Assembly: GCF_009827395.1 (NCBI RefSeq)
Contig: NZ_WTYX01000002.1
Span: 186,001-250,000, forward strand
From: Pontixanthobacter aquaemixtae
Lineage (GTDB): Bacteria > Pseudomonadota > Alphaproteobacteria > Sphingomonadales > Sphingomonadaceae
Direction: 5' to 3'
DNA length: 64,000 bases
Below the pieces are notes generated by a model. The model saw nothing but the letters and a program-made list of their open reading frames with translations. It ran no database searches and was not told the DNA's origin. Numbering within the stretch: position 1 is the first letter of the stretch; each line of letters begins with the position of its first letter. This document shows positions 26,390 to 36,231 of the stretch, in pieces. Both the position numbers and the translations under genes were made by a program.

Positions 26390-28252
26390 ATGCACCGTTT
26401 GCCGACCCGGAATCTCGCCGCGCTTTTGCTGGCTTCGACAGCTGTTGCGAGCTGCGGCGGATTGACCGAACCCGTGGTGGCGAGCGTCGAGTGCAATCAA
26501 ACCCAAACCGAATGCATCAATGCGTGGTTTGACGAGAAATTCGAAGAATTGCTGGCTTTCAGCCCGATGCAGCAAACCGCGCTGGGCCTGAAAACGGATT
26601 ACGACAAGATCGACGATCTGAGCGTCGAAGCCGAGCAAGCGCAGCTCGAATGGTGGCAGAACACCACCGCCGAAATGGAAGCCAATTTCGATTACGACGA
26701 ATTGTCCGATGATGCGAAACTGTCTTGGGATATGTGGCAGTTCCGCAAGGATCAGGCGCAAAACGCCGCCGGTTTCCGCAACCAGCAATATATCCTGCAC
26801 CAGATGAATGGCACGCATTCCGCGCTGCCGAGCTTTCTGATCAGCCAGCACAAGGTCGAAAGCGAAAGCGATATGACCGCCTTCATCGCGCGCATCGGCG
26901 GGATTGGCACGGCGATGGATCAATTGCTGGTCCGTGCGCAAGCCAATGCCGAAGCGGGAACCCGCCCGCCAAGCTGGTCCTATGACGCGGTGATCGCGGA
27001 ATCGAAGAAGATCACCAGCGGCGCGCCCTTCGATGATGCGGAGGACGCCGAACCTTCTGCATTGTGGACCGCAAGCGAAGGCCATCTCGCCAAGCTGGTT
27101 GAGGATGAAGTGATCACAGAAGATCGCGCCGGGGAACTGCGCGAGGAAGCGCGCCTCGCGCTCACCCAGAAAATGGCGCCCGCCTATGGCCGGGTGATCG
27201 ACTGGTTCACCCAAGACCAGCCCAATGCGGACAAGGAAGCGCGGGGGGTCAGCGCGCTGAGCGATGGCGGGGATTTCTACAAATACCGGCTGGGGGCGAT
27301 GACCACGACCGATCTGACCGCCGACGAGATCCACGATATCGGGCTGTCCGAAGTCGCGCGGATTCGCAGCGAGATGGAAGAGATCAAGGATCAGGTCGAA
27401 TTTGACGGCGATCTGCAAGCCTTCTTCGCGTTCATGCGCGAGGATGACCAATTCTATTTCCCCGACAATGATGCCGGCGCGCAAATGTATATCGACGCGG
27501 CGAAGAAACATCTGGCGTTCATCGATACCAAGCTGCCCGAATATTTCGGCATACTGCCCAAGGCCCCGCTCGAAGTCCGCCGGGTCGAGCCGTTCCGCGA
27601 ACAGGATGGCGCGGCGCAGCATTACCGCACCGGCACGCCCGATGGTTCGCGCCCGGGAATTTACTACGCGCATTTGTCCGACATGCGGGCCATGCCGATC
27701 CCGTCGCTGGAAGTGATTGCCTATCACGAAGGCAATCCCGGGCATCACATGCAACTGTCGATCGCGCAGGAATTGACCGGCATTCCCAAATTCCGCTCGC
27801 AGGGATTTTACCTCTCTGCATTCGGCGAAGGCTGGGCGCTTTATTCGGAGAAACTGGCGAAGGAAATGGGCGCCTATCAGGATCCCTATTCGGACTTTGG
27901 CCGCCTAACCACCGAGATGTGGCGCGCGATCCGGCTGGTGGTCGATACCGGAATTCATTCGAAAGGATGGAGCGAGCAGCAGGCGGTTGATTACTTCCTT
28001 GCCAATTCGCCCATTCCCGAAGCCGCGGTGAAATCGGAAGTCCGCCGCTATATCGTGATGCCGGGGCAGGCCACAGCGTACAAGATCGGGATGATCCGCA
28101 TTCAGGAACTGCGCGCCAAGGCGGAAAAAGAGCTGGGCGACAAATTCGATATTCGCGGTTTCCACGACACCGTTCTGGGCGGCGGATCGGTGCCGCTCGA
28201 CTTGCTGGAGAAGCGCGTCGATCAATGGGTGGCTGCGCAGAAAGCTGCCTAG
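26390..28252 (+). CDS. DUF885 family lipoprotein, putative zinc metallopeptidase-like
   Basis: A 620-residue protein. The start at 26390 follows GAGAGAGGA, and the chain opens with a lipoprotein signal ending VASC (Cys22). The all-helical body carries AYHEGNPGHHMQ at about residues 446-456, the HExxH-like motif of DUF885 proteins, followed by EGWALYSEKLAKEMG, which supplies a downstream glutamate as in gluzincins. This supports a periplasmic or outer-membrane-tethered zinc peptidase, although activity is little studied in the family. It converges with the fatty-acid-hydroxylase-like gene; the two stop codons overlap. Confidence 0.88.
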   Translation: MHRLPTRNLAALLLASTAVASCGGLTEPVVASVECNQTQTECINAWFDEKFEELLAFSPMQQTALGLKTDYDKIDDLSVEAEQAQLEWWQNTTAEMEANFDYDELSDDAKLSWDMWQFRKDQAQNAAGFRNQQYILHQMNGTHSALPSFLISQHKVESESDMTAFIARIGGIGTAMDQLLVRAQANAEAGTRPPSWSYDAVIAESKKITSGAPFDDAEDAEPSALWTASEGHLAKLVEDEVITEDRAGELREEARLALTQKMAPAYGRVIDWFTQDQPNADKEARGVSALSDGGDFYKYRLGAMTTTDLTADEIHDIGLSEVARIRSEMEEIKDQVEFDGDLQAFFAFMREDDQFYFPDNDAGAQMYIDAAKKHLAFIDTKLPEYFGILPKAPLEVRRVEPFREQDGAAQHYRTGTPDGSRPGIYYAHLSDMRAMPIPSLEVIAYHEGNPGHHMQLSIAQELTGIPKFRSQGFYLSAFGEGWALYSEKLAKEMGAYQDPYSDFGRLTTEMWRAIRLVVDTGIHSKGWSEQQAVDYFLANSPIPEAAVKSEVRRYIVMPGQATAYKIGMIRIQELRAKAEKELGDKFDIRGFHDTVLGGGSVPLDLLEKRVDQWVAAQKAA

Positions 28253-29040
28253 CCCTGCTGCGCGGGTGTGTCGCGGAAGGGTGCGCCTAGCGCGCGGTCC
28301 AGCGGCACATCATCGCCCGCCAGCGGATCATACACGCCGATATCCAGCTCATCCTGCGGCACATCGTCACGATAGGTGCCGTGCAGCCTGTCCCAGAAAC
28401 TGAGGCCGCTGGTAAAATTGCTGTCGCGTTCTGATTTGATGCTCGAATGATGGATGCCGTGCATTTTCGGTGTGGTGACACCGCGCGCGAGCAGATCATC
28501 GACTTGCCCGGGTAGCTTCAGATTCGCATGGTGAAACAGGATCGAGAAATTGAAGAAGCGCCGCCACCAGCGCAGCGATTTGGGGCTAACGCCTGACAGG
28601 CGGACCTGCACCAAGCGCCACGGCAAGGAAACCAGCATATCGAGCGGGTGAAAACGCACGGCGGTGCTCGCATCCATATCGGGATCGACATGATGCACGC
28701 GGTGGAAACGCCACAGGAGGGGGACCTTGTGCGTCGCCACGTGCCACCAGTAAAACCCGTAATCCATCGCCGCGATCCCGCCGAGCAGGCGCAAGGGACG
28801 GGGCAATTTCTGCGCAAATCCGCGCCTGTGCTGGAGGTTGTTCTTGGCAATCGCCTGGGTCAGCGGCTCTTCCACCGCCGCCACAATCACCACGCACCCT
28901 GCCCCCAACGCCGCATTGCGGACATTCCGCGGGATGGCGGGGCTCTTGGCTTCGCGCAGCGGCCTTTTCCGCTCGGCCAGCAAGATGCCGCCGACCACTG
29001 CGCCCGCTGCCGCCATCATTGCAATCTTGCCAAGCTTCAT
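28249..29040 (-). CDS. Fatty acid hydroxylase/sterol desaturase family protein
   Basis: A 263-residue integral membrane di-iron enzyme. Histidine clusters are HVATH (100-104), HRVHH (113-117), H131 and HGIHH (194-198), which is the conserved eight-histidine pattern. Hydrophobic helices at 5-22, 45-62 and around 85-100 fit. The family hydroxylates or desaturates lipids, carotenoids or sterols using O2. The substrate is unknown. It is divergent from the TIGR04282 transferase gene with about 50 bases between starts, so the two may share a control region. Whether it belongs to the neighbouring organoarsenical locus is open. Confidence 0.88.
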   Translation of the reverse strand: MKLGKIAMMAAAGAVVGGILLAERKRPLREAKSPAIPRNVRNAALGAGCVVIVAAVEEPLTQAIAKNNLQHRRGFAQKLPRPLRLLGGIAAMDYGFYWWHVATHKVPLLWRFHRVHHVDPDMDASTAVRFHPLDMLVSLPWRLVQVRLSGVSPKSLRWWRRFFNFSILFHHANLKLPGQVDDLLARGVTTPKMHGIHHSSIKSERDSNFTSGLSFWDRLHGTYRDDVPQDELDIGVYDPLAGDDVPLDRALGAPFRDTPAQQG

Positions 29041-29093: not shown

Positions 29094-29672
29094 GTGAGCG
29101 AACCGATGATCTCGATATTCTGCCGCTGGCCCGAACCCGGCGAGGCCAAGACACGGCTGATACCCGGCTTCGGCCCCGAAGGCGCGGCCGCGATCTATGC
29201 CAAACTGCTGGCGCATACAATGGAGGTTTGCCGGGCAAGCGGGATTGCTTTCGAATTGCGCGTTACCGGAGCACCGGTGGATCGCTTCAAAGCCAGGTTC
29301 GGCGCGGATTTGCAGGTAGTCGAGCAAGGCGGTGGCGATCTCACCGACAAACTGTCACGCGTCCCCGCCCCCGCAATCGTGATCGGCAGCGACTGCCCCG
29401 GCCTGACCCCGCAAGTCTTGAAAGACGCGCGCGATACGCTCTCCACAAAACCGGCAGTGATCGGCCCGGCCAGCGATGGCGGCTATTACCTGCTTGGCTA
29501 TAACGAGCCTGCAGATTTTGCTTTCGCCGATATGGAATGGAGCACCGACAGCGTGTTTGCCGAAACGCTGAAACGGTTTGCAGCGCGCGGCATCCACCCG
29601 GCGGTCCTGCCCGAATTGAGCGATGTGGACACCGCCGCTGACCTTGACGATTGGCCGGAATTTCTCCCGTGA
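29094..29672 (+). CDS. TIGR04282 family transferase (rSAM-associated glycosyltransferase-like)
   Basis: A 192-residue GT-A-fold nucleotidyl/glycosyl transferase. The N-terminal MISIFCRWPEPGEAKTRL is the nucleotide-binding loop of the TIGR04282 (DUF2064) family. GSDCPGLTP holds the family acidic pair, and GPASDGGYYLLGYNEP is the acceptor region. A GTG start at 29094 gives four more residues than the ATG at 29106 and fits the family N-terminus better; neither has a strong ribosome binding site. Its GTGA stop/start overlaps the next gene. The two families are named for co-occurrence with radical SAM proteins, as seen in arsenosugar-type loci. Confidence 0.85.
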   Translation: MSEPMISIFCRWPEPGEAKTRLIPGFGPEGAAAIYAKLLAHTMEVCRASGIAFELRVTGAPVDRFKARFGADLQVVEQGGGDLTDKLSRVPAPAIVIGSDCPGLTPQVLKDARDTLSTKPAVIGPASDGGYYLLGYNEPADFAFADMEWSTDSVFAETLKRFAARGIHPAVLPELSDVDTAADLDDWPEFLP

Positions 29673-30406
29673 GCCCAAAGGCAAGCAGCGTTGGCATCGT
29701 GCTGCCCGTTCTCAATGAAGAGCGCGCGCTTGCGGCAATGTTCGAAGTGCTTTCGCGGCTCGATCCCAAGCCCGCCGATATCCTGTTTGTCGATGGCGGC
29801 AGCGATGATGCGAGCTGCGAATTGATCCGCGATGCGGGCTACCGGCTGCTCGAAACCGCAAAGGGCCGCGCTATCCAGATCAATGCGGGGGTGGAAGCGG
29901 TTGGGACCGAGTACGTCTGCGTTCTCCATGCCGATACCATTCCGCCAGCCGATATGGTTTCGGTGATCACCGAAACACTCGCCGACCCGAAGATCGCGCT
30001 GGCCAGCTTTACCCCGCTGATCAAGGGGCCGGAAAAGACCCGCTGGTTCACCACTTTCCATAATTGGATCAAGACCTGGTACGCGCCGATCATCACCCGC
30101 CCGCATCTGTTTGTGCGCGGAGTGCGGCTGCTGTTCGGCGACCACGCGATGTTTTTCCGCCGCGCGCAATTCCTTGAAATCGGCGGCTGCACGCCCAGCG
30201 ATGCAGTGATGGAAGAAGCCGATCTCTGCGTGAAATTTGCGCGGCTGGGCAAGATCAGGCTGGTCCGCCGCTGGGTCGAAACATCGGACCGGCGGATCGC
30301 CGCATGGGGTCCGATCAAAGCCAACTGGATCTATTTCAAAGTCGGCATTCTATGGGCCGTCGGCGCGCGCAGCCGGATGGCGAAGGATTATCCGGATGTG
30401 CGGTAA
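29669..30406 (+). CDS. TIGR04283 family glycosyltransferase (GT2)
   Basis: A 245-residue GT-A glycosyltransferase. It begins at GTG 29669 inside a GTGA overlap with the preceding transferase gene (an ATG at 29651 is possible). IVLPVLNEE and ILFVDGGSDDAS form the nucleotide-sugar site. HADT is the DxD-equivalent, and GDHAMFFRR and EEADLCVKFARLG match the TIGR04283 pattern. It pairs with TIGR04282 as in many genomes and may attach a sugar or sugar-like unit to the product of the radical SAM step (inference). It ends 3 bases short of the convergent SDR gene. Confidence 0.87.
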   Translation: MSPKASSVGIVLPVLNEERALAAMFEVLSRLDPKPADILFVDGGSDDASCELIRDAGYRLLETAKGRAIQINAGVEAVGTEYVCVLHADTIPPADMVSVITETLADPKIALASFTPLIKGPEKTRWFTTFHNWIKTWYAPIITRPHLFVRGVRLLFGDHAMFFRRAQFLEIGGCTPSDAVMEEADLCVKFARLGKIRLVRRWVETSDRRIAAWGPIKANWIYFKVGILWAVGARSRMAKDYPDVR

Positions 30407-30409
30407 GCG

Positions 30410-31441
30410 CTACTCCGCCGGAACTTCTTCACCCTTCAAGAACCCGGTTTCGATGCAATGCCCGATCAAACGCTGGAGATATTCCAGACCCGTCGGTGGG
30501 CACACCAGCCCGGTCATTTCCTGCGCCGCGCGGTCATCGAATTCGGGATTGCGCTGGAAATAGCTGGCGTAAAGCCCGGCCACGCGCTTGTAGAGCCGCC
30601 GCTCCAGAGCGGGCAAAACCGCCGGGTCGAAATCATCGGGTTCGACCAGCTGGGGCCGGTGGAACTGCGCGAAGCTGGCGATCGCATCGGTAAACAGCCC
30701 GACCGGAACCGGACGCGCTGAAACGAGGTGATATGCGCCGCCATTGGCCCGCCGCATATTCCCGGCGAGCGCCACAATTCCCGCCGCAACATGGTCAAGC
30801 GGGACAAAATCCAGCGTTGCATCGCGGCGCGCGGGCATATGCCGCACGCGGCCCTCCGCGATCAGTTTGAACGCGGCATAGGTGGTGTCGAACTGGCGGA
30901 TTCTGCCGCCCTCGCTTTCGCCCACGACAATGCTGGGCCGCGCGATTGCGAAGGGTACGTCGCTGGACCTGACCAGTTTTTCAGCGGCCGCCTTGCTCGC
31001 TTCATATCCATTGGCAAAACCGCTGTCGGGCACACGGTCAGCCTCCAGAATTGGTCCGTTGCGGGTTCCGCAAACATAGGCGGTGCTGACATGCAGAATG
31101 GGCATATCGCCCGATCGCGCAAATTCCACTGCGTTGGCTGCCCCGCCGGTATTGACCGCGCGATAGGTTTCATCATCAAGATCAAAACGGACGGTCGCGG
31201 CACAATGGATCAAAAGATCATGGCTGGCGGTCAGCCGGTCCCACTCAGCCTTCTCCCAGCCAAATAGCGGCTTTGAAACATCGCCCGCCACAATCGCTGC
31301 CGGTGCCACTGGTGAGCCATCATTGGCGAGGATATCGCGGTTATTATGGACCAGCGCGGTCACGCTGTGCCCCGCCGCAATCAGGCGCGCAGCGACTTCG
31401 CCGCCGATCAAACCGGCGGCTCCGGTCAGGAATATATTCAA
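30410..31441 (-). CDS. Extended SDR, thioester-reductase/NAD-dependent epimerase-like
   Basis: A 343-residue NAD(P)-binding oxidoreductase. The Rossmann motif is TGAAGLIG (G7, G10, G13). The catalytic triad fits S119-T120 in HVSTAYVCG, Y146 and K150 in GYEASKAAAEKL. The sequence resembles the NAD_binding_4 (thioester/fatty acyl reductase) branch more than sugar epimerases. Translation starts at a TTG (31441) that overlaps the stop of the ArsM-like gene (TTGA), so the two are coupled. In this context it could reduce or rearrange the carbon skeleton of an organoarsenical intermediate, which is inference. Confidence 0.83.
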   Translation of the reverse strand: MNIFLTGAAGLIGGEVAARLIAAGHSVTALVHNNRDILANDGSPVAPAAIVAGDVSKPLFGWEKAEWDRLTASHDLLIHCAATVRFDLDDETYRAVNTGGAANAVEFARSGDMPILHVSTAYVCGTRNGPILEADRVPDSGFANGYEASKAAAEKLVRSSDVPFAIARPSIVVGESEGGRIRQFDTTYAAFKLIAEGRVRHMPARRDATLDFVPLDHVAAGIVALAGNMRRANGGAYHLVSARPVPVGLFTDAIASFAQFHRPQLVEPDDFDPAVLPALERRLYKRVAGLYASYFQRNPEFDDRAAQEMTGLVCPPTGLEYLQRLIGHCIETGFLKGEEVPAE

Positions 31442-32493
31442 CAGCAGGCGGCCGGGGCTTCGGGCGTGCCGTCGGCGCTATCCGCAAACGGGATCGCCAC
31501 ACCGCAATCGGGAAACACGCCGTAATGCGTGCTGAAATCGCCGAAGAAATCGAAATGTTCGGCAAAACGCGTATCAGCGAGCATCTTCCAGCTATTGCCG
31601 CAAATCGGGAATATCCGCCCCGCTTCGATATGGTGGTGATCGTCGAGCTCGAACACGCGTTCCTGGCCCTTCACGGTGCCTTTGTAGATCACCGCCTGGC
31701 CATAATCTTCGCACTGCATTTCCAGATCGGGCAGTTTGAACAGGCGGAAAGTGGCGGAGAAGAAACTGATCCCGTCGAGCTTTGCCGCGACTTCTGCATC
31801 GCCAATGCCCAGCGGACGGCTGGAAACCAGCCGCGGATCAAGAAAGCCCGCCTTCTTGGCATGGTCGATAAAGTCGCCCCAATAGAGCGCGCCCGATAGG
31901 CATTCACCGTGCAGCACCGGATCATTGTGCAGCGCGGCAGGTACTCTGCGGTCCGAATAGACGTCGGAAAAATAGAGCTCCCCGCCCGGCTTGAGCAGGC
32001 GATAAGCGGCAGAGAACACCGCCTGCTTGTCCGCCACCAGATTGATCACGCAATTCGATACGATCACGTCAAAGTGGTTTTCGGGCAGATCAAGCGCATC
32101 GAGCTTCTCGATATCGCCTTCGACAAACATCACATTCGATTTGGCGTAGCCGAATTTTGCGCGGTGCCATTCGAGATGATCGTTCGCCACTGCCAGCTGT
32201 TCGGGCGTGGTATCGACGCCGGTGACGCTACCCTGCTCACCGACAATCTGCGCCAGAATATAGGCATCCTGACCGCTACCCGATCCCAGATCCAGAATAT
32301 GCGCGCCTTCGATGGCCTGCGGCGAGACCAGACCGCATCCGTAATAGCGCGCGCGCACTTCCTCATGCACATTGCGCATGGCTTCGAGAACCGCAGCGGG
32401 CGGGGCTTCTGTGGTGCAGCAGGCATCGGTTTTGAGATCGTCCGACCCGCTGAGCACTTTGCCGTAATAATCGCGGCTGTTTTCGATATTCAT
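31438..32493 (-). CDS. arsM: ArsM-type arsenite S-adenosylmethionine methyltransferase
   Basis: A 351-residue methyltransferase that should convert As(III) to methylated arsenicals. The SAM motif is ILDLGSGSGQDAY (66-78). Candidate arsenic-binding cysteines are C25/C26 (LKTDACC), C53 (YYGCGL), C148 (SNCVINL) and C198 (HGECLSGA), spaced as in characterised algal ArsM. The C-terminal extension (FPICGNSWKMLADTRFAEHFDFFG, THYGVFPDCGVAIPF) is the long form typical of cyanobacterial and algal enzymes, and the chain ends in Cys-Cys. The start at ATG 32493 is chosen because the YYGKVLSGSDDL family beginning follows directly. It is divergent from the flavoprotein gene and coupled to the downstream SDR. 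Confidence 0.9.
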   Translation of the reverse strand: MNIENSRDYYGKVLSGSDDLKTDACCTTEAPPAAVLEAMRNVHEEVRARYYGCGLVSPQAIEGAHILDLGSGSGQDAYILAQIVGEQGSVTGVDTTPEQLAVANDHLEWHRAKFGYAKSNVMFVEGDIEKLDALDLPENHFDVIVSNCVINLVADKQAVFSAAYRLLKPGGELYFSDVYSDRRVPAALHNDPVLHGECLSGALYWGDFIDHAKKAGFLDPRLVSSRPLGIGDAEVAAKLDGISFFSATFRLFKLPDLEMQCEDYGQAVIYKGTVKGQERVFELDDHHHIEAGRIFPICGNSWKMLADTRFAEHFDFFGDFSTHYGVFPDCGVAIPFADSADGTPEAPAACC

Positions 32494-32618
32494 GTAACTT
32501 CGCGTCCCCTTTGGCCGAATGGCAGGCCAGGCTATCAATCCAGGCCTTAAGTGCTTGGCATAAATGAGTTCGCCTTGCAGCATCAATTCGTTACAGTCGG
32601 AAAAAACCGGGGACTTCG

Positions 32619-34037
32619 ATGAAATTCACACATGATGCCATCGTGATTGGCGGTGGGGCGGCCGGCCTGACCGCTGCGGGTGGCTGCGCGCTGTTCGGGC
32701 TGAAAGTCGCGCTGATCGAAGGTCACAAGATGGGCGGCGAATGCCTCAACAATGGCTGCGTCCCGTCTAAGGCGATCATCACCGCGGCCAAACGGGCGCA
32801 GGAAGCGCGCGAGGAAAAACGTTACGGCGTCCAACTGGCCGCGCCCAAAGTCGATTGGGGCGGCGTTCACAAACATATTCACGATGCCATCGCGCATATC
32901 GAACCGCACGATTCGAAAGAGACATTCGAAGAAATGGGCTGCGAAGTGATTCTCGCTTATGCGCGGATCACGGGCAAACATACGGTCGAAGTCGGCGGGC
33001 GAACGCTGAAGGCGCCGCGCATTGTCATCGCCACCGGATCGCAGCCCTTTGTCCCCCCGATCGACGGGCTGGACAGCGTGCCCTACCTGACCAACGAGAA
33101 CCTGTTCGACCTGACCGAGCAGCCTCAACATCTGGTGATCATTGGCGGCGGGGTGATCGGGATGGAAATGGCGCAAAGTTTCCGCCGCTTGGGCAGCGAC
33201 GTGACCGTGATCGAACCGGGCGAACCGATGGCGCGCGATGATCGCGAGTCGGTTCAGGTGGTCGTCGAGGTGATGAAAGAGGAAGGCGTCCGTTTCGTCA
33301 CCGGCAAAGCCGAACGGGTTGAAGGCAGCGCGGGCAAGATCACCGTCCATACCGACAGCGGCGAAGCGATCAGCGGATCGCATTTGTTGATCGCGGTCGG
33401 GCGCAAGGCGCGTGTGTCAGGCTATGGGCTGGAAGAGCTGGGCGTTGCGCTGGGTAAGAACGGTATTGCTGTCGATGCGCGGCGCCGCACGTCGGTAAAA
33501 AGCATCTATGCGATCGGCGATTGCCGCGAAGGGCCGCGCCTCACCCATGTTTCTGGCTATGAAGGGTCTAACGTCGCGCTCGAAATCGTCACCGGTATCC
33601 CCACCAAAGTCGATTGGAAGGCCTTGCCGTGGTGCACCTATACCGAGCCCGAAGTCGCGCAGATCGGGATGACCGAACAGGACGCGAAGGAAAAATTCGG
33701 CGACAGGATTACCGTGATCAAGGAAGGGTTCGACCACAATGAACGCGCCATTGCAGAAGGATCAACCAAGGGGCATCTGAAGGTTATCCTGAAAGGCAAA
33801 AAGATCATCGGCGCGAGCATTTGCGGCAAGAATGCGGGCGAGTTGCTGCTGCCCTTCACCCAATCGATCACCGGCAAAAGCAGCAGCTTTGCCCTGGGGT
33901 CGGCGGTCATATCCTACCCGACCCGAAGCGAGATTTTGAAAGCGGCGGCATTTTCTGCGTGGGAGCCGACCGTGTTCGGATCGCTGCCCAAGAAATATGC
34001 CGCTTTCGTCGCCAAAATGCGCAGGACATTCAATTGA
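32619..34037 (+). CDS. Pyridine nucleotide-disulfide oxidoreductase, MerA/Lpd-like
   Basis: A 472-residue FAD flavoprotein. FAD binding is at IGGGAAG (10-16), the redox disulfide is CLNNGC (C42, C47), and the NAD(P) motif is IIGGGVIGMEMA near residue 172. The interface domain lacks the His-Glu pair of glutathione reductase or lipoamide dehydrogenase: the HPT(L)SE position reads SYPTRSE. That is closer to mercuric-reductase-like members. No N-terminal HMA domain or C-terminal Cys pair is present, so Hg(II) reduction is unlikely. A redox role on arsenic intermediates or thiol carriers is inferred from the neighbours. It overlaps the radical SAM gene by 4 bases (TTGA). Confidence 0.88.
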   Translation: MKFTHDAIVIGGGAAGLTAAGGCALFGLKVALIEGHKMGGECLNNGCVPSKAIITAAKRAQEAREEKRYGVQLAAPKVDWGGVHKHIHDAIAHIEPHDSKETFEEMGCEVILAYARITGKHTVEVGGRTLKAPRIVIATGSQPFVPPIDGLDSVPYLTNENLFDLTEQPQHLVIIGGGVIGMEMAQSFRRLGSDVTVIEPGEPMARDDRESVQVVVEVMKEEGVRFVTGKAERVEGSAGKITVHTDSGEAISGSHLLIAVGRKARVSGYGLEELGVALGKNGIAVDARRRTSVKSIYAIGDCREGPRLTHVSGYEGSNVALEIVTGIPTKVDWKALPWCTYTEPEVAQIGMTEQDAKEKFGDRITVIKEGFDHNERAIAEGSTKGHLKVILKGKKIIGASICGKNAGELLLPFTQSITGKSSSFALGSAVISYPTRSEILKAAAFSAWEPTVFGSLPKKYAAFVAKMRRTFN

Positions 34038-35035
34038 GCACCACCAGGAACCGCAGCGCATCGCGCAATGCGCCCACCGGCGCGTCCCCCTTTCAAGTGG
34101 AGGCCGATGCGCTTCCGCAGGAGAAATTCTCCGATCCGCTATGGACAGCCAAGGGCGAACGCCGCGCCTCGGTGCCGCTGGCGCGGCTTGAAACATTGTG
34201 GTTCAACACCGGCACGCTGTGCAATCTTGCCTGCGTCAATTGTTATATTGAAAGCAGCCCGACCAATGATGCGCTGGTCTATATCAGCCGCGATCATGTG
34301 CTGCGCTATCTAAGCGAGATCGCGGACAAAGCCATCGCCACACGGGAGATCGGCTTTACCGGCGGCGAGCCCTTTATGAATCCCGAATTCGTGCCCATGC
34401 TCACCGACACTCTGGAACGCGGTTTCGAGGCATTGGTGCTGAGCAATGCGATGAAGCCGATGCGGCGGCACGAGGCGGCGCTGCTCGAATTGAAGGAGCG
34501 TTTCGGGAACAAGCTGACCATTCGCGTCAGCCTCGATCACTACACCGAAAAAGCGCATGAGGCGGAACGCGGCGCGCGCAGCTGGGGGCCGGGCACAGAC
34601 GGGCTGAAATGGCTGTCCGACAACAATTTCTCAATTGCGGTGGCCGGGCGGATGCTGCCGGGCGAAACCATGGAACAGGCCCGCGCGGGCTATGCCGGAC
34701 TGTTTGCCGCGATGAATATCCGGATCGATGCAAGCGATCCGATGCAGCTGGTGCTTTTTCCCGAAATGGACGAGCACAAAGACATCGCCGAAATTACCAC
34801 CGAATGCTGGGGCATTCTGGACAAGAACCCTGCCGATATCATGTGCGCCACCAGCCGCATGGTGGTGCATCGCAAAGGCGAAGAAAGCCCGCGCGTCGCG
34901 GCCTGTACGCTAATCCCCTATGATGACGGTTTCGATATGGGCGCGACGCTGGAAGAGGCGTCACGCGACGTGGCGCTCAATCACCCGCATTGCGCGCGGT
35001 TCTGCGTGCTCGGCGGGGCGAGCTGTTCGGCTTAG
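34034..35035 (+). CDS. Radical SAM protein of the organoarsenical-type locus
   Basis: A 333-residue radical SAM enzyme. The cluster motif is CNLACVNC (C63, C67, C70; CX3CX2C) after LWFNTGTL, and GFTGGEPFMNPEF is the GGE SAM-binding motif. A C-terminal CARFC-X6-C cluster (C320, C324, C331) could hold an auxiliary Fe-S site. No ATG lies near the frame start; TTG at 34034 overlaps the flavoprotein stop (TTGA) and is the likely start. Context with ArsM, TIGR04282 and TIGR04283 suggests a role like ArsS, transferring a 5'-deoxyadenosyl group to dimethylarsenic. The C-terminal part does not look like ArsS, so the reaction is uncertain. Confidence 0.83.
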   Translation: MSTTRNRSASRNAPTGASPFQVEADALPQEKFSDPLWTAKGERRASVPLARLETLWFNTGTLCNLACVNCYIESSPTNDALVYISRDHVLRYLSEIADKAIATREIGFTGGEPFMNPEFVPMLTDTLERGFEALVLSNAMKPMRRHEAALLELKERFGNKLTIRVSLDHYTEKAHEAERGARSWGPGTDGLKWLSDNNFSIAVAGRMLPGETMEQARAGYAGLFAAMNIRIDASDPMQLVLFPEMDEHKDIAEITTECWGILDKNPADIMCATSRMVVHRKGEESPRVAACTLIPYDDGFDMGATLEEASRDVALNHPHCARFCVLGGASCSA

Positions 35036-35364: not shown

Positions 35365-36231
35365 TCACAAAACCCGCCCCGCCACGGCATCGAGCCTGGC
35401 AAGCATCGCCGGGTCGCGCGCATCCTCGCTGGTGATCAAGGCATAGTCGAGCACCGTGTCGAGCGGTGACGCTTTGCGCGTTTTCGGCAGCGCTTTGACA
35501 AATTCTTCGACCGTTTTGCGCGCAATTTCGCCATTGGCATTCATCTGCGCAATCACTTCGCTCACTTCGACGAAGGCGGCGTCTTCGCGCCAGCAATCAT
35601 AATCTGTAACCATGCCGACCAGCGCGTAGGGCAGCTCTGCCTCGCGCGCCAATTTTGCCTCGGGCATTGCGGTCATCCCGATCACATTCGCGCCCCATTG
35701 GCGATAGAGATGGCTTTCCGCGCGGGTCGAGAATTGCGGGCCTTCCATCGCCAGATAAGTCCCCCCCTTGGTCACTTTACCGCCGGCTTTCTTCACCGCT
35801 TTCGCCGCCATTTCGGACATGCGATCGCACACCGGCTCTGCCATGGAGACATGCGCGACCATGCCGGTGCCGAAAAAGCTGGAAGCGCGCGTTTTGGTGC
35901 GGTCGATAAACTGGTCGACGGCGACAAAATGCCCCGGAGGCAATTCTTCCTGCAAGCTGCCGACCGACGATATGGCGAGCAAATCGGTACATCCAGCGCG
36001 TTTGAGCGCATCGATATTGGCGCGCGCATTCACCTCGCTGGGCGGGATGGCATGGCCGCGGCCATGGCGAGGAAGGAAGCGGACCTGCACATCGCCAATC
36101 CGGCCGCATAAAATCTCGTCAGAGGCTTCGCCAAAGGGAGAGTTCACCCTGATCCATTGCGCGTCTTCCAACGCATCGATCTGGTACAGGCCCGAGCCGC
36201 CGATAATTCCGAGAATCCATTTTTCCGTCAT
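35365..36231 (-). CDS. mtnP: S-methyl-5'-thioadenosine phosphorylase
   Basis: A 288-residue type II purine nucleoside phosphorylase family enzyme that splits methylthioadenosine to adenine and 5-methylthioribose-1-phosphate. Conserved pieces are IIGGSGLY, FLPRHGRGH, ISSVGSLQEELPPG, TYLAMEGPQFSTRAES, NVIGMTAMPEAKLARE and VTDYDCW, including the family substrate-pocket residues. It is the housekeeping salvage enzyme in most bacteria. It sits 330 bases beyond a radical SAM gene, and arsenosugar formation needs removal of adenine from a 5'-arsenoadenosine, so a second role is conceivable (inference). Confidence 0.95.
   Translation of the reverse strand: MTEKWILGIIGGSGLYQIDALEDAQWIRVNSPFGEASDEILCGRIGDVQVRFLPRHGRGHAIPPSEVNARANIDALKRAGCTDLLAISSVGSLQEELPPGHFVAVDQFIDRTKTRASSFFGTGMVAHVSMAEPVCDRMSEMAAKAVKKAGGKVTKGGTYLAMEGPQFSTRAESHLYRQWGANVIGMTAMPEAKLAREAELPYALVGMVTDYDCWREDAAFVEVSEVIAQMNANGEIARKTVEEFVKALPKTRKASPLDTVLDYALITSEDARDPAMLARLDAVAGRVL

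Follow-up and report, generated by a model that had tools for sequence, protein, structure and literature searches.

Gene content and organization of the locus

The stretch of DNA analysed here (the window) covers 64,000 nucleotides of Pontixanthobacter aquaemixtae, whose 2.98 Mb genome is assembled in three contigs. Positions 29094-35035 carry six genes that, together with an adjoining gene for S-methyl-5'-thioadenosine phosphorylase (MTAP), likely encode a variant pathway for arsenosugars (arsenoribosides). We assign this reading a probability of roughly 0.65. All six reading frames are intact, and the genes form three two-gene units, each pair sharing a 4-base overlap (GTGA, TTGA and TTGA). 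A first-pass annotation had placed the six tight, partly overlapping genes at the right coordinates, but did not mention that the genes for the short-chain dehydrogenase/reductase (SDR) and ArsM lie on the minus strand. It also ended the locus at the sixth gene and missed the adjoining candidate MTAP gene at 35365-36231 on the minus strand (TIGR01694, 288 bits, above the cut-off of 275). The genome has no other MTAP match at E <= 1e-20.

The first unit lies on the plus strand and encodes a TIGR04282/DUF2064 protein (29094-29672), named arsenosugar biosynthesis glycosyltransferase by NCBI, and a TIGR04283-like family 2 glycosyltransferase (GT2; 29669-30406), whose GTG start at 29669 overlaps the stop of the preceding gene. 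Both had been annotated as transferases of these two families. The TIGR04282 assignment stands at 172 bits over a cut-off of 134. The second protein scores 154 bits against a cut-off of 182, with TIGR04283 still its best-scoring family, and matches PF00535 with 56 bits. The TIGR04282 protein is probably a nucleotidyltransferase, of the sugar-1-phosphate type, rather than a sugar transferase. Residues K19, R21, D100, D128-G-G, D177 and D179 are invariant in 20/20 sequences and look like a nucleotidyltransferase site. The nearest structures to its predicted fold (predicted local distance difference test score of 94) are 3cgx (putative), 2i5e (probable), the 3-phosphoglycerate guanylyltransferase 7p97, Rv2983 and KdsB, and a sequence profile search recovers the same set of nucleotidyltransferases. 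Identity to Rv2983 and 7p97 is 18-22%. CofC-like and 3-phosphoglycerate guanylyltransferases resemble TIGR04282 in both fold and sequence profile.

The second unit, on the minus strand, consists of the SDR, a thioester-reductase/male-sterility-like NAD-binding protein (30410-31441; PF07993, 141 bits), and of ArsM (31438-32493), a long-form protein with a C-terminal Cys-Cys. The ArsM family profile matches solved arsenite methyltransferases (5evj, E 5e-130; 4kw7, E 1e-111), and C25, C53, C148 and C198 are invariant in 16/16 aligned relatives. We take these positions to be the four catalytic cysteines. Given the profile match and the invariant cysteines, the protein is, by homology, an arsenite methyltransferase, in agreement with the earlier description of a long-form ArsM with four candidate arsenic-binding cysteines. 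Scores are 98.9 bits for NF038099 AsSugarArsM (400 needed) and 164 bits for PRK11873 (263 needed). The terminal Cys-Cys recurs in 26/27 relatives and possibly shuttles arsenic to the next enzyme. The divergent arsM and flavoprotein genes are separated by 125 bases (32494-32618), a putative promoter region. A GTAAC close to one end of this gap and a GTTAC close to the opposite end, seen in the window and some of eight relatives inspected, are a possible symmetric promoter or operator.

The third unit, on the plus strand, encodes a flavin adenine dinucleotide (FAD)-dependent pyridine-nucleotide disulfide-type reductase resembling MerA and lipoamide dehydrogenase (32619-34037) and a radical S-adenosylmethionine (SAM) protein (34034-35035; PF04055, 50 bits). 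The best family of the flavoprotein is PRK06370 (387 bits, 620 needed). Against MerA TIGR02053 it scores 321 bits (454 needed). CxxxxC occurs in 44/44 relatives; 42 of them have Tyr at the later active-site position, and the other 2 have His. This position is presumably the place of the catalytic His of lipoamide dehydrogenase, and we regard Tyr there as MerA-like. The flavoprotein is a candidate reductase keeping the arsenical trivalent.

Conserved gene order and genome-wide co-occurrence

A search with the radical SAM protein was positive in 83/296 genomes of the order (Sphingomonadales), and 40 of those loci were inspected. A second set comprised the best 80 of at least 578 confirmed named loci, giving 120 loci examined in total. 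The two sets may share organisms; tree rows L119 and L193 are identical. All six genes occur in identical order in 15/120 loci (7/40 of the order set; 8 of the best 80), so that the synteny search proposed with the first-pass annotation did recover the set as co-occurring. The arrangement is not due to chance, its gene order being conserved in many genomes. Identical order minus arsM alone is found in 11/120 loci (5/40; 6 of the best 80). In several organisms, Qipengyuania included, arsM is missing between the SDR and flavoprotein genes with the remainder kept (L034, L035, L036, L069, L070, L071, L072, L074, L075, L079, L080, L083, L085). Among the best 80, L080 and L083 also have the TIGR04282/TIGR04283 block inverted, accompanied by a fatty-acid hydroxylase gene. 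The window carries a fatty-acid hydroxylase superfamily gene at 28249-29040 (minus strand; PF04116, 88 bits), tentatively a possible accessory gene.

Partner genes at distances of up to 7.5 kb from the radical SAM gene were counted in 140 loci, using hidden Markov models (HMMs) built from part of those very loci. TIGR04282 was found in 60, TIGR04283 in 58, the flavoprotein in 53, ArsM in 32, the SDR in 31, MTAP in 24 and the fatty-acid hydroxylase in 18. At least one of TIGR04282, TIGR04283, MTAP, the flavoprotein and ArsM was present in 72/140 loci. Such conservation bears on one alternative, an ArsM detoxification gene that happens to lie beside envelope glycosyltransferases and a housekeeping MTAP. 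The sub-threshold TIGR04283 score and the single-copy MTAP would suit unrelated neighbours. The conserved order, the 4-base overlaps and a genome-wide co-occurrence that persists even when the genes are unlinked make such an assembly highly improbable, the least credible of the explanations weighed here.

This co-occurrence was assessed in 80 genomes, 50 positive for the radical SAM gene without a local arsM and 30 negative for it. TIGR04282 was present in 50/50 positive and 1/30 negative genomes (G311, 136 bits), and TIGR04283 in 50/50 and 3/30 (G311, 215 bits; G388, 100; G039, 92). In 34/50 genomes the TIGR04282 gene was on another contig or more than 100 kb from the radical SAM gene, hence its co-occurrence is not a by-product of linkage. 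Among 14 control genomes, TIGR04282 and TIGR04283 each matched solely in Synechococcus elongatus. In G311, adjacent TIGR04282 and TIGR04283 genes were seen, and searches found neither radical SAM family; a third adenosylating enzyme may exist.

ArsM in turn appears to depend on the radical SAM gene. Of the 296 genomes of the order, 49 encode a window-type ArsM (E <= 1e-40), and 48 of these 49 belong to the 83 radical SAM-positive ones, with a Fisher value of 2e-31; the Fisher tests of co-occurrence ignore relatedness. The sole radical SAM-negative genome with such an ArsM, G104, is 69% complete, and no ArsM was found among the 30 negative genomes of the 80-genome test. Around unlinked or uncertain ArsM genes, 16 loci were inspected. 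Nine had ArsM without another cluster gene, six had at least one partner near ArsM, and the last, L218, showed an already known cluster again.

MTAP was present in 48/48 radical SAM-positive genomes of the family. In 16 of these, across nine genera, no more than 1.3 kb separates it from the radical SAM gene. Within the order, MTAP was found in 77/83 radical SAM-positive and 95/213 negative genomes. In four genomes outside the class (G302, G621, G415, G372), the clustered copy is the sole MTAP match. MTAP sequences carry TDYDCW (TDYDSW in L188), which we presume to stand at the adenine-contacting place.

Radical SAM protein and its relation to ArsS

The window radical SAM protein scores 57.2 bits against TIGR04167 ArsS (300 needed), and membership in that family was rejected on this basis. 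All of its nine cysteines are invariant in 30 sequences. Profile alignment by hhalign relates its family to canonical ArsS (98.9%, E 3e-17, 264 columns) and brings the cysteines of the C-terminal MC and HCxxC..GxSC motifs into register. Judged from these comparisons, the protein belongs to a distant ArsS-like family separate from NCBI's ArsS. Relatives in the PDB are of the general radical SAM/SPASM class only (BlsE, SkfB, SuiB, DesII).

Canonical ArsS was surveyed in 150 genomes of the phylum using TIGR04167 scores over the cut-off. It was present in 72/150, the window-type protein in 12/150, and both in none. No TIGR04167 match over the cut-off was found in the window's class among the 150 genomes. 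For eight genomes of that class, among them the window genome, the window-type radical SAM protein itself gave the best TIGR04167 match, a weak one. All 72 canonical ArsS loci were inspected; some lie on short contigs, so that partner counts are lower bounds. ArsM was near ArsS in at least 24/72 and the flavoprotein in at least 10/72. In L167, outside the window's class, canonical ArsS lies with TIGR04282, TIGR04283, flavoprotein and MTAP genes. L168, also outside the class, holds the same set plus an ArsM 59% identical to that of the window, and L169 is a canonical ArsS locus with TIGR04282/TIGR04283. The profile alignment together with canonical ArsS standing inside a window-type module is the strongest single argument that the window protein does ArsS-like work.

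A second radical SAM clade comprises 19 tree rows and is 31-36% identical to the window protein in ten aligned rows. The tree (149 rows, quick FastTree, with a long-branch warning) was used solely to see clades. The second clade is found in other families of the order and outside the class, with its own gene orders that include ArsM, MTAP, TIGR04282 and TIGR04283 (L051-L062, L183, L185, L188; the last three outside the window's class). A diverged MTAP copy (41-44% over the matched stretch) adjoins the radical SAM gene in 7/12 second-clade loci of the order (L053, L055, L056, L058, L059, L060, L062). The second-clade MTAP copies have DGPRLGT in place of the EGPQFS[TS] found in most others.

In the arsinothricin cluster arsQML of Burkholderia gladioli, as presented in PMC8552651, ArsM and a radical SAM enzyme also stand together, and ArsL is described as transferring the 3-amino-3-carboxypropyl group of SAM to arsenic (PMC12159101). 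If the window protein acted likewise, the adjoining MTAP could recycle the methylthioadenosine left over, which its position fits. ArsL is nonetheless a different radical SAM enzyme and transfers a different group, and the three-gene core as outlined in PMC8552651 includes neither a nucleotidyltransferase nor a glycosyltransferase. An arsinothricin-like route would leave unexplained these two enzymes, which accompany the radical SAM gene in every one of the 50 positive genomes. The window ArsM scores 142 bits against the arsinothricin-type family NF040538 (500 needed), and ArsS fills the same slot in L167 and L168. We disfavour this route as very unlikely, mainly on the ArsM family score and the company of the nucleotidyltransferase and glycosyltransferase.

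Several isolated observations concern radical SAM homologues. One at G006:C1:2144371-2145333 contains an in-frame TGA stop. Three loci from metagenome bins titled Klebsiella pneumoniae, SAR324 and Latescibacterota (L099, L101, L104) encode radical SAM proteins 60-61% identical to the window's and are probably mis-binned contigs. In Rhodobacterales (L115, L119, L148, L149, L150), a lone radical SAM gene adjoins three conserved genes, which look to us like pgi, pgl and zwf.

A putative arsenosugar route and its alternatives

Arsenosugars rank among the major arsenic compounds found in marine life. Searches of open-licence papers turned up no enzyme assigned to the steps beyond ArsM and ArsS, and the removal of adenine is ascribed to a nucleosidase left unnamed in the relevant part of a review (PMC10456119). 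We suggest a route in which ArsM dimethylates arsenite, while the flavoprotein holds the arsenical in the trivalent state or brings it there. As a candidate arsenic-adenosylating enzyme, the ArsS-like radical SAM protein would then join a 5'-deoxyadenosyl group to arsenic. MTAP is a candidate for the depurination. Its phosphorolysis of the adenosine arsenical, a methylthioadenosine analogue, might yield adenine together with 5-deoxy-5-dimethylarsinoyl-alpha-ribose-1-phosphate. Such a sugar-1-phosphate would be a natural substrate for TIGR04282, which could turn it into a nucleoside diphosphate (NDP)-sugar, and the TIGR04283-like GT2 enzyme would pass the arsenosugar to an acceptor. Tailoring of this acceptor is a possible role for the SDR and the fatty-acid hydroxylase. 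MTAP inverts to the alpha-1-phosphate, and GT2 enzymes invert as well. The two inversions would yield a beta-riboside, the form given for natural arsenosugars (PMC10456119), which fits the route. The proposal draws on gene content, synteny, co-occurrence, homology and a predicted fold, with arsenic as the substrate suggested by the presence of ArsM. A testable enzyme can now be named for each later step. If true, the route would explain how such puzzling arsenic sugars could be made by many bacteria.

Compared with the cyanobacterial arsenosugar pathway (Synechocystis ArsM and ArsS; NF038099 and TIGR04167), the window shares ArsM, TIGR04282 and TIGR04283-type proteins, and a radical SAM protein with CxxxCxxC and C-terminal MC..HCxxC..GxSC motifs. 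Its radical SAM protein and ArsM are, however, far below the ArsS and AsSugarArsM cut-offs, and a flavoprotein, SDR, MTAP and fatty-acid hydroxylase are added in or beside the cluster. The window MTAP shares its family with the enzyme of methylthioadenosine salvage, whereas an arsenic analogue is proposed as its substrate. The first-pass annotation had already outlined a variant route of ArsM methylation, radical SAM adenosylation and sugar transfer. That outline fits the conserved gene order, ArsM's dependence on the radical SAM gene, the co-occurrence of TIGR04282 and TIGR04283, and the two ArsS loci. It needs amending in two further respects: the trio of radical SAM, TIGR04282 and TIGR04283 is found more often than ArsM, which is therefore not the defining gene, and the radical SAM protein falls outside NCBI's ArsS family.

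Several observations weigh against the arsenosugar reading. ArsM was matched in 14/50 radical SAM-positive genomes without a local arsM (6 strong, over 400 bits; 8 weak) and was not found in the other 36/50. In 38 further genomes of this kind, ArsM matched strongly in 4 and weakly in 4. The SDR, flavoprotein and radical SAM genes stand together without arsM in 13 loci, and 68/140 radical SAM loci have none of the five partners within 7.5 kb. In the 50 positive genomes, TIGR04282 scores range over 79-190 bits with 44/50 over the cut-off, and TIGR04283 scores over 116-290 bits with 29/50 over it. By HMM, the radical SAM protein is closer to the Rv1681 family (76 bits, 380 needed) than to ArsS. 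At canonical ArsS loci, TIGR04282/TIGR04283 were found in at least 3/72 and MTAP in at least 2/72, and 39/72 lacked any partner (short contigs affect some); the argument for ArsS-like work rests on two loci, L167 and L168. MTAP does not adjoin the cluster in 32/48 genomes of the family. It is also a housekeeping gene, single-copy in the window genome, and no MTAP match was found in the complete genomes G024 and G061, where arsM adjoins the radical SAM gene. A search for an Acr3 pump in the window genome found none. Canonical ArsS loci were also considered as general proof of the module and judged weak, with TIGR04282/TIGR04283 in only 3/72. ArsM as the defining gene was rejected since the radical SAM, TIGR04282 and TIGR04283 genes co-occur without it, and an ArsM hidden elsewhere in genomes without a local arsM was mostly not found. 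The many radical SAM genomes without ArsM are the main reason why our confidence does not exceed the value given above.

Because ArsM was not found in those 36/50 genomes, arsenic may not be the only or the true substrate. The radical SAM protein, MTAP, TIGR04282 and TIGR04283 could form a general module that leads from 5'-deoxyadenosyl to a sugar and acts on some other acceptor atom or molecule, with ArsM added later, or merely sharing the locus, in Sphingomonadales and some others. The trio of radical SAM, TIGR04282 and TIGR04283 without an ArsM match, the proximity to Rv1681 as nearest NCBI family and compact ArsM-less clusters (L092, L113, L114, L125) all speak for such a module. The genomes of L092, L113 and L114 have no ArsM elsewhere, and that of L125 has a weak match. 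Yet 48/49 genomes with window-type ArsM also have the radical SAM gene, two loci hold canonical ArsS within this module, and a local arsM is present in 13/19 second-clade loci. A general module of this kind appears unlikely, while being the most serious competitor of the arsenosugar reading.

The arsenosugar reading can be extended to species without ArsM. The SDR gene lies beside the radical SAM gene without arsM in 14 loci, excluding L132 with its distant 24% SDR match, and 13/14 keep the flavoprotein (the exception is L067). This retention makes it attractive that the flavoprotein might reduce imported pentavalent methylarsenicals. There might be a second class of radical SAM enzymes for arsenic adenosylation, missed by the ArsS model, that is widespread in Alphaproteobacteria and also occurs in some Gammaproteobacteria. 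It would feed a route from MTAP via TIGR04282 (NDP-arsenoribose) to TIGR04283, and ArsM-less species would use scavenged methylarsenicals reduced by the flavoprotein. We consider this broader proposal tentative, with somewhat less than even odds. If true, common heterotrophs of the sea, relatives of Qipengyuania and Ruegeria for example, would be predicted to have arsenosugar-type chemistry. Two flavoprotein frames are unusually long, with 713 residues at L168:6779-8917 and 718 at L185:9991-12144. In L168 the reductase match begins at about residue 219, perhaps owing to a fusion with what we take to be a TVP38-like membrane protein.

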